From: Candidatus Thalassarchaeum sp.
GTDB lineage: Archaea; Thermoplasmatota; Poseidoniia; Poseidoniales; Thalassarchaeaceae
Length of the DNA: 45,918 nt
Reading direction: 5' to 3'
Assembly: GCA_022449945.1 (NCBI GenBank)
Contig: JAKURM010000008.1
Location: 1 to 45,918, forward strand
The translations under genes were made by a program, and so were the position numbers. Position 1 is the stretch's first letter, and the number at the start of each line of letters is the position of its first letter. A model generated the notes under the pieces. The model saw only the letters and a list, made by a program, of their open reading frames with translations, was not told the origin of the DNA and made no database searches. Positions 34,695 to 37,527 of the stretch are shown here, piece by piece.

Positions 34695-34707
34695 GAAAGG
34701 TTTATGA
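34695..34707 (+). promoter_or_regulatory. Predicted BRE/TATA box for the purine-rich RNA
   Basis: GAAAGG followed directly by TTTATGA reads as an archaeal BRE plus TATA box. It is the most AT-rich element before a GC/purine-rich stretch, and would place a start of transcription near 34730, just before the first stable hairpin. There is no open reading frame of quality downstream on this strand, so the box most likely drives a non-coding RNA. Confidence 0.45.
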
Positions 34708-34891
34708 GCCGGTCACGACCCTGTGTTCTTTGCCGCTCCGGGGGAGTGGTGTGAGGGCGCTTCGGCGCGACTCGCGGGCCACATAACCGAGCCCCAAAGC
34801 TGGGGCGGTAGAACCGAGATTCGAAAGGAGATCGGGGAAAGGCTGGAACGTCTGTGGACGGGAAGGCAGCGGCGACGAAATCGGAGGAACT

Positions 34892-34908
34892 GGACGCAAG
34901 GAAGGGGA
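34892..34908 (+). repeat. 17-nt direct repeat, copy 1
   Basis: GGACGCAAGGAAGGGGA occurs here and again at 35000-35016, exactly 108 bp apart. The flanks are also related (GAACTGGACG against GAACCGGACG), so the two copies look like repeated modules inside the candidate RNA. Confidence 0.75.
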
Positions 34909-34999
34909 GAGCGAGAAAGAAGCTGCAGAGATACACGCGCGTAGGGGGAAGAGAATGAACCTGGGTCGCGGAAAAGTGGGAAACGAAGTGGAGAGAACC

Positions 35000-35016
35000 G
35001 GACGCAAGGAAGGGGA
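35000..35016 (+). repeat. 17-nt direct repeat, copy 2
   Basis: Second exact copy of GGACGCAAGGAAGGGGA (first at 34892-34908), preceded by GAACC and followed by AGGAAACCGAGG. Only two copies are seen in the window. Confidence 0.75.
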
Positions 35017-35248
35017 AGGAAACCGAGGGAAACACTTGGGCAACAAGGGCGGGGAGACCCGTGGAGGAGCTCGTATCGAATCGTGGAAGGAGAATACCGA
35101 GAGGTAGGAACGGAAGCGGAGACGGCAAAAGAGAGAGAGATCGTTCAAGAGTCGGAAAATGACAAAGGGAGAGCACGAAGTCCCGGAGTCTTCTACCCGG
35201 GGAAACTCGGGCCTTCGGGCCCGAGGGACACCCGGACCCTGCGGAGTT

Positions 35249-35288
35249 AACAGGGGGGGATGCTCCCCCATGTGCAGAACCCCCTGTT
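35249..35288. terminator. Strong inverted repeat between the RNA locus and fumC
   Basis: AACAGGGGG (35249-35257) pairs perfectly with CCCCCTGTT (35280-35288). A competing hairpin GGGGGA/TCCCCC (35255-35269) lies inside. It sits between two convergent transcription units (the purine-rich RNA and the fumarase). A processing or 3'-end-protecting role is possible. Archaea terminate mainly at T-runs, and T-rich stretches follow on the plus strand (35310-35345). The terminator label is tentative. Confidence 0.35.
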
Positions 35289-35350
35289 GCTCCCACCTGT
35301 TTACTTCGGCCCTTATTTCCTTCAATGCCTTAGCAGAGCCTTTTCCTTGT

Positions 35351-36952
35351 TCAAGAACTGGGCCCTATCATGTTCTCAGGCCTGACCCATTCATCGAATT
35401 GCTCGTCAGTGAGCATCTCCATCTGAATCGCGCTCTGCCTAAGAGTCAGGCCTTTCTCATGGGCGTTCTTCGCTATCTTGGCTGCATTGTCATAACCTAT
35501 GTGTGGGTTTAGAGCTGTGACTAGCATTAGCGAATTCTCAAGGTGTTCAGATATATTTTCCTTATTGGCCTCCAAGCCCGAAACGCACTTCTCTGAGAAC
35601 GAGATGCAAGTATCAGAAATCAGTCTGATGCTGTGTAGGAAGTTGTGAATCATCAGCGGTTTGAACACATTCAGTTCGAAGTTCCCTTGGCTGCCACCAA
35701 TGGAAATCGCCGTATGGTTCCCAATTACCTGGCAGCAAACCATTGTCATTGCTTCAGACTGAGTTGGATTTACCTTGCCTGGCATGATGCTGGAACCTGG
35801 CTCGTTTGCAGGTAGAGCCAGTTCTCCAAAACCGCATCGGGGACCTGATCCTAGCCATCTGATGTCATTGGCTATCTTCATCAGTGAGACTGCGAGAGTG
35901 TTGAGTGCGCCAGATGCAGAAACGATTGCATCGTGAGCAGCCAATTGTGCAAACTTGTTCTCTGCACTTTCAAATGGAAGGTCGGTCTTTTCTGCGATTT
36001 TCTCTGCGACCAAATTTGCGAACTCAGGGTGCGTATTCAGGCCTGTTCCCACAGCAGTACCTCCCAGGGCCAGTTCGAATAGGTCCACCAGAGAGGACTG
36101 GATTCTAATCAAGTCTGCATCAAGCATTGAGACATATGCTCCGAATTCCTGATCCAGTGTTAGTGGAACTGCATCCATCAGATGTGTTCGCCCAATCTTG
36201 ACTATGCCAGAGAACTCTTCTGACTTTGCAGATAGTTGTGAACGTAATTTAGCGATTGCTGGAATTAGTCTGTGTTGAACTTCCTCTGCGGCAGCGATGT
36301 GCATTGCAGTAGGGAATGTATCGTTGCTGGATTGAGCCCTGTTCACATGGTCATTCGGGTGAATTGGCGTCTTGCTGCCCAGTTTTCCCCCCGCCATCTC
36401 AATTGCCCGATTGGCAATGACCTCGTTGGCATTCATATTCGTCTGTGTCCCAGAACCAGTCTGCCAAATCCTGAGGGGGAAATGTTCGTCCAGAGAACCC
36501 GAAATAACCTCATTGCAAGCCTCGGATATCAAATTCCCAATCTCCTCATCGAGTCCCCCGAGTTCCACGTTAGTCTCGGCTGCAGCTTGCTTCAGAACCC
36601 CAAAAGCACGGATTACCGACCTGGGCATCCTGTCTTCGCCAATGTCGAAGTTGACCAGGGACCTGGCCGTCTGTGCGCCAAAGTACCTATCGGCAGGGAC
36701 CTCTATCTCCCCCATGGTGTCCTTCTCAATCCTGAATTTTCCTTTCGATGTCTTCGGTTTCCTAGGTTCGCTCGGGACAGAGTCAGTCCGTGGAGGCTCG
36801 CTACCTGAAAGCGAGCTTTCAATCATCCTCGAGATGGTTGCAGACCTTCCGCTCTGTCTTCCCTTTCCAACTCTGGCGTCCAACCTCTTGGCCAGATTCT
36901 CTGGTATGCTGACTGTGATTATCCTTCGATCGCCCGCACGGTGCTTTGCCAT
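35351..36952 (-). CDS. fumC: Class II fumarase fused to an N-terminal ribbon-helix-helix domain
   Basis: Fumarate hydratase (fumarate to malate, TCA cycle), with an unusual N-terminus. Residues 73-533 are a complete class II fumarase: [83 protein letters not shown] and the signature [16 protein letters not shown]. Residues 9-48 ([21 protein letters not shown] ... [14 protein letters not shown]) match a CopG-type ribbon-helix-helix: a beta strand and two helices that bind DNA as a dimer. A proline/lysine linker (49-72) joins the two. No Met, GTG or TTG codon lies just before FRIEKD, so the fumarase cannot easily be made alone. A perfect palindrome sits directly upstream of the ATG, suggesting autoregulation (inference). 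Confidence 0.92.
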
Positions 36953-36960
36953 GAAATTTC

Positions 36961-36983
36961 TATTTATTAGTTATTAATAAATA
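36961..36983. promoter_or_regulatory. Perfect 9-5-9 palindrome at the fumC promoter, candidate operator
   Basis: TATTTATTA (36961-36969), spacer GTTAT, then TAATAAATA (36975-36983), an exact inverted repeat. It starts 9 bp upstream of the ATG of the RHH-fumarase and overlaps the only TATA-like sequence in the 46-bp gap after the cyclophilin gene. A dimeric RHH protein bound here would block transcription initiation. Such AT-rich symmetry could also arise by chance in an AT-rich promoter. Confidence 0.55.
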
Positions 36984-36998
36984 TTATTGATTCGAGTC

Positions 36999-37481
36999 TC
37001 ATGCCCTCTCTACCTTGATTATCTTCTGCGGAGACTGGGGCCTGTCCCCTGGTAATGTTGTTGTCGATTCAATAACCCTAACTACGTCCATTCCCTTTGC
37101 TACCTCCCCAAATACCGCATGGTTTCCATCAAGCCACGGAGTTGGGACCGTCGTCAGGAAAAACTGCGATCCTCCAGTATTCCTTCCTGCATTTGCCATG
37201 GAAAATATTCCTGGCTTATCATGCCTCTTTGCAAGTGCCGATTGTTCACAATCTATCCTCCATCCTGGACCTCCAGTACCTGCCCTGCCGTTGTTCGGAT
37301 CGCTCGAATGAGGGCAGCCCCCTTGGATCATGAAGTCCTTGATGACCCTATGGAAATGCAGTCCATCATAGAATCCATCATCCACTAATTTGAGGAAATT
37401 TCCGGTAGTATCCGGGCACTCGTCCGTATAGAGTTCAATGTCGATTTCTCCTGCGCTCGTTGTCATCCTAACATATGTCAT
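36999..37481 (-). CDS. Cyclophilin-type peptidyl-prolyl cis-trans isomerase
   Basis: A 160-residue single-domain cyclophilin that speeds proline isomerisation during protein folding. Family blocks: ECPDTTGNFLKLVDDGFYDGLHFHRVIKDFMIQGGCP (catalytic R in FHRVI and the F-M-x-QGG motif), GRAGTGGPGWRIDCE, PGIFSMANAGRNTGGSQFFLTTVPTPWLDGNHAVFGEV (Q of SQFF and the W in PWLDG) and the C-terminal IIKVE strand. There is no signal peptide, so it is cytoplasmic. ATGs at 37481 and 37466 are both possible. It lies 46 bp after the CsaA-like gene and 46 bp before fumC on the same strand. Confidence 0.94.
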   Translation of the reverse strand: MTYVRMTTSAGEIDIELYTDECPDTTGNFLKLVDDGFYDGLHFHRVIKDFMIQGGCPHSSDPNNGRAGTGGPGWRIDCEQSALAKRHDKPGIFSMANAGRNTGGSQFFLTTVPTPWLDGNHAVFGEVAKGMDVVRVIESTTTLPGDRPQSPQKIIKVERA

Positions 37482-37527
37482 GAGTCAAAGCCGGAGTTCC
37501 AAGTTCAATATGGTATGCTTGTATCAG

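Follow-up and report, generated by a model that had tools for sequence, protein, structure and literature searches.

Does a fumarase gene that encodes its own ribbon-helix-helix (RHH) domain also carry, in its promoter, the site through which that domain controls it? The gene that raises this question lies in a window of 45,918 nucleotides, the whole stretch of DNA analysed, which named relatives assign to Ca. Poseidoniales (Marine Group II), family Thalassarchaeaceae; the genome assembly that contains it spans 1.34 Mb. The RHH-fumarase gene (fumC, 533 aa) is read from the minus strand with its ATG at 36952, and a 46-bp gap (83% AT) separates it from a cyclophilin gene on the same strand, which ends at 36999. 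The stretch upstream of fumC is the most AT-rich among 125 sampled gene starts of the genome, and it holds an inverted repeat that a first-pass annotation had proposed as an autoregulatory operator.

A fumarase with a fused RHH domain

The two parts of the protein differ in how readily they are recognised. The core reaches 788.5 bits against the TIGR00979 equivalog model (cut-off 664.75 bits), identifying a class II fumarase, and solved fumarases are its top fold matches in Foldseek (FumC and human fumarase, TM ~0.93 on the target). For the N-terminus, RHH_1 (PF01402) scores 21.1 bits against a curated cut-off of 20.5 when that region is scanned in isolation, with matches in 34 of 35 relatives, and 16.9 bits, under the cut-off, in a scan of the whole protein. 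NikR proteins are the best solved-structure leads for the domain at a non-significant E of ~0.05, while models of low confidence give a strand and helices at residues 18-27 and 36-48/49; a fold search with the 58-aa RHH model was uninformative. All 80 database matches kept for the domain are themselves fused to fumarase. An RHH domain at the N-terminus of a metabolic enzyme is a PutA-like architecture, but the protein lies outside the PutA family proper, as its catalytic domains are those of fumarase alone, without proline dehydrogenase or P5C dehydrogenase. An apparent stand-alone RHH gene in one relative (G038) was rejected, being the same RHH-fumarase gene split at a contig end. Table 1 lists the features of the locus.

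Table 1. Coordinates of the fumC gene parts and upstream features within the window
Feature	Position	Strand	Basis
Perfect inverted repeat 9-5-9, TATTTATTA-GTTAT-TAATAAATA	36961..36983	-	Sequence search
Species' copy of the order-wide element, TTTATTAATAACTAATAAATA, 1 mismatch	36961..36981	-	Comparison with relatives
Box 1, TTATTAATA	36972..36980	-	Consensus columns 1-9
Box 2, TAATAAATA, 11 bp from box 1	36961..36969	-	Consensus columns 12-20
TATA-like core TTTATTAA, presumed TBP site and putative promoter	36974..36981	-	Kept in most RHH-bearing relatives
RHH domain of fumarase, residues 12-45	36818..36919	-	PF01402 above cut-off, N-terminus scanned alone
Variable linker, residues 49-72	36737..36808	-	Low conservation; low model confidence at residues 49-59
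Class II fumarase core, residues 73-530	35363..36736	-	TIGR00979; Foldseek

Downstream of fumC, the DNA is rich in purines and apparently non-coding over about 600 bp (34700-35300); no Rfam family match was found for it, and its folding is not better than that of shuffles. The block CTCCCCCATGTGC.GAACCCCCTGTTGCTCCCACCT, which closes this region, recurs downstream of fumC in relatives.

An order-wide element over the TATA-like box

The first-pass annotation had described exact inverted copies 5 bp apart with the near arm 9 bp from the ATG, and both statements hold, the repeat occupying 36961-36983 and its near arm starting at -9. Even when 3 mismatches are allowed, the window contains no second match to the repeat, and 100 shuffles of its full length gave no match. 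Its symmetry alone is modest evidence, because a perfect arm of at least 9 bp appears in 1.2-1.4% of shuffles of the gap's AT-rich composition (p ~0.013). Covariation across the dyad was not used as evidence, the best centre exceeding column independence by just 0.33 of 12 pairs.

Aligned with its relatives, the repeat proves to be the form that an element shared across the order, TTTATTAATAA-N-TWATTAATA, takes in this one species; the element usually spans -29 to -9 from the ATG and starts mostly at -29 to -32. Over the TATA box it forms, in effect, a pair of near-palindromic 9-bp boxes (TWATTAATA), set 11 bp or about one helical turn apart. Across 70 aligned segments, chosen at up to 4 mismatches so that conservation is somewhat inflated, two conserved blocks flank one freely varying column. 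What did not carry over from the first-pass annotation is the exact 9-5-9 form as the conserved site: other species show a 9-1-9 dyad (TATTAATAA-G-TTATTAATA), 11-1-11 dyads or imperfect versions, and the form they share is the pair of boxes. A coding reason for the conservation, in a frame running upstream of the ATG, was rejected, since a stop stands just before the ATG in two relatives (L009 and L011).

The element is also closely confined to fumC. At up to 2 mismatches it was found there in all 24 genus genomes in which the fumC start is present, and the same 24 genomes hold no further site. TTTATTAATAA occurs once in the window's own 1.34-Mb genome, and among the 125 sampled gene starts none but fumC comes close to the family consensus (1 mismatch, with the next best at 8). 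Over 60 genomes, again at up to 2 mismatches, the element lies at fumC in 30 and at 4 stray sites, while a reversed control pattern finds its matches mainly in AT-rich genomes. A search of 244 genomes at 3 mismatches was swamped by chance matches in AT-rich genomes.

Conservation of a TATA box alone could give part of this picture, and the cyclophilin promoter, which stands one gene further upstream in the same genomes, offers a comparison. From -31 to -20, pairwise identity is 0.87 for cyclophilin and 0.90 for fumC; from -19 to -10 it is 0.44 and 0.76, respectively, and fumC therefore has a second conserved block beyond the core promoter box. It is accordingly rather unlikely, in our assessment, that the element is core promoter only, a strong AT-rich TATA box kept for TBP whose symmetry follows from base composition. 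The left half is indeed an archaeal-type TATA box in the right place, kept in nearly all RHH-bearing genes even where the right half is lost, and the shuffle value of the dyad is only modest; against this stand the conservation of the -19 to -10 block, a word that is not shared by the promoters of the genome in general, and the other inverted repeats carried by groups with a different N-terminal domain. Across the genus the cyclophilin gene, too, has a conserved upstream word, ATACCATATTGAACTTG, which lies between about -34 and -17 (37498-37515 on the minus strand of the window) and is unrelated to the fumC element.

Loss and change of the domain among relatives

Domain and element can be followed together across the order. 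Within 4 mismatches of the consensus are 81 of 106 RHH-bearing fumarase upstreams; the other 25 are more than 4 bases off, and 21 of these keep only the TATA-like half, among them Poseidoniaceae in which the RHH strand is unchanged. The first-pass annotation had proposed to look for conservation of the symmetry among related genomes, and had counted a palindrome missing where the domain is kept as evidence against its reading. The majority of RHH-bearing genes bear the proposal out, but the minority does not, because these 21 upstreams retain the domain with just half of the element.

The Poseidoniaceae also include fumC genes that start directly at the fumarase core, without RHH. Of 23 rows labelled RHH-less in the comparison, three (L116, L139 and L152) are sequences interrupted by N runs or errors and were left out, leaving 20 on a FastTree tree of 115 fumarase proteins. 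All 20 are also without the element; on this tree a box of the TTTA(T/A)TA/TTAATAA type precedes 95/95 RHH-bearing genes and 0/20 of those without RHH. The tree requires 7 changes of the RHH label, no fewer than 4 of them on supported branches; the independent pairs all point the same way (4:0) but are too few for significance (p 0.125). The link between element and RHH is an association rather than proof, because one deletion at the 5′ end could remove domain and element together. As would be expected of a PutA-like system, a conserved site in the gene's own promoter is associated with the RHH domain, the upstreams with only the TATA half being exceptions. The RHH-less genomes yielded no close stand-alone copy of this RHH domain.

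Two further observations concern these relatives. RHH-less fumC genes of the Poseidoniaceae genus g11 (L040, L043, L046, L178 and L179) share another upstream word, GTGCGAACTGTGAAGAAGTTC, near the ATG. Two genomes have two fumC genes each: in G102 (contigs C9 and C13) one has an RHH match and one does not, and in G111 (C9 and C33) neither does. Gene replacement or mixed assemblies are possible sources of these pairs.

Where the domain is altered, the site is altered as well. In genus g13, whose RHH is divergent, three genomes carry TTAATAAC-N11-GTTATTAA with a variable interior, and two more have a weaker form; the half-site is the same, but its spacing differs. A sister lineage of the class (f3; 9 genomes, L203-L211) has a fumarase core that is 47-49% identical and a different N-terminal extension, RHH-like by eye (YTSIRVTKEVRNSLQ...SINSML), in which Pfam, NCBIfam, PDB and profile comparison recognised no RHH; profile comparison of the Poseidoniales and f3 types found no similarity between them. 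Upstream of f3 fumC, at about -64 to -33 from the ATG, are two copies, exact or degenerate, of TATGCA-NNN-TGCATA, which directly precede a TATA-like TTTTTAATA. Exact copies occur in 8/9 genomes, there only at fumC, and the repeat (TATGCAnnnTGCATA) is unrelated to the Poseidoniales element.

These patterns also bear on whether the element serves a different DNA-binding regulator, be it a stand-alone RHH or not, with the fused RHH acting in, for example, oligomer assembly. The window's genome does encode at least one other RHH protein, weakly similar, in a 127-aa frame (L214, G000:C58:12932-13060), and the tie between element and fused domain is drawn from sequence comparison. We nevertheless regard a separate regulator as quite improbable, given a site that accompanies the fused domain across the order, lies at no other gene and changes where the fused domain changes.

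Proposed self-repression and comparison with known systems

There is a coherent explanation for these observations in autoregulation. The enzyme probably turns its own gene down, because most RHH-bearing species keep the motif and those that lost the domain lack it; the element would then be the operator by which the RHH-fumarase represses fumC. The first-pass annotation, which had proposed such an operator for the fused RHH, was right in kind though not in the exact unit that is conserved, and the operator idea itself finds good support in comparison, from a site that is conserved with the RHH, unique in the genus genomes, absent without the domain and different where the RHH differs.

Fumarase C forms tetramers; with an RHH domain fused to each subunit, two RHH dimers would result, matching the two boxes. 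Carried by the fumarase tetramer, these dimers would bind both palindromic boxes, which lie next to each other at a distance of one helical turn and extend over the TATA box and the presumed start site. As the element takes in the TATA box and reaches nearly to the ATG, bound protein should shut out TBP/TFB and RNA polymerase, and fumarase would thereby hold down its own gene. Control by substrate, or by enzyme amount only, could set the feedback. RHH domains are known to act on DNA as dimers, often with several in a row, and archaeal RHH repressors are known to block their own promoters by occlusion, with self-repression the common mode of RHH action (PMC5569661).

This common mode also weighs against a true RHH site that serves activation, or tethering of the enzyme to DNA, instead of repression. 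The f3 repeats, just upstream of a TATA-like box, are in a position compatible with activation, but in Poseidoniales the TATA box itself lies under the element, an arrangement that suits occlusion, and we consider an activating or tethering role very improbable. Pure chance as the full explanation of the palindrome, for all that gap shuffles reproduce it occasionally, is ruled out by conservation.

The self-repression proposed for fumC may extend to the Poseidoniia as a whole. Fumarase would then be its own regulator throughout the class: two lineages would have fused two different RHH or RHH-like domains, each with an unrelated operator, the tetramer would set two RHH dimers on two subsites, and enzyme amount, perhaps with substrate occupancy, would feed back on the promoter. 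This wider scheme is tentative, and we would give it slightly less than an even chance.

We know of no experimentally characterised regulator in Marine Group II, a group of abundant and mostly uncultured marine plankton, and the literature searched contained no paper joining ‘fumarase’ and ‘ribbon-helix-helix’. If the proposal is true, it supplies a concrete, testable pair of regulator and site for these archaea, and the natural variants (lost domain, altered spacing, different domain and site) form a ready-made comparison series.

Three known systems come closest. With class II fumarase (FumC) the protein shares the full catalytic core, well above the TIGR00979 cut-off, and differs from it by about 70 extra N-terminal residues that form the RHH domain and linker. 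The archaeal viral regulators SvtR, AvtR and F55 likewise place RHH domains on archaeal promoters, at inverted or tandem repeats near TATA/BRE and in some cases at their own promoters, but they are small, stand-alone proteins with no enzyme fusion and with other site sequences (PMC5569661). A parallel in design is the trifunctional PutA of bacteria, in which an N-terminal RHH is likewise fused to a metabolic enzyme that acts as its own repressor and autogenously represses its regulon (PMC5293562). Unlike PutA, the enzyme here is a class II fumarase, in archaea; its site, which appears to be the only target, overlies an archaeal TATA box, and a membrane switch is not known for it. The RHH is what dimerises PutA, but the core of fumarase forms a tetramer by itself. 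If the proposal is true, the RHH-fumarase is an archaeal equivalent of PutA that belongs to the central TCA cycle and doubles as repressor of the gene encoding it.
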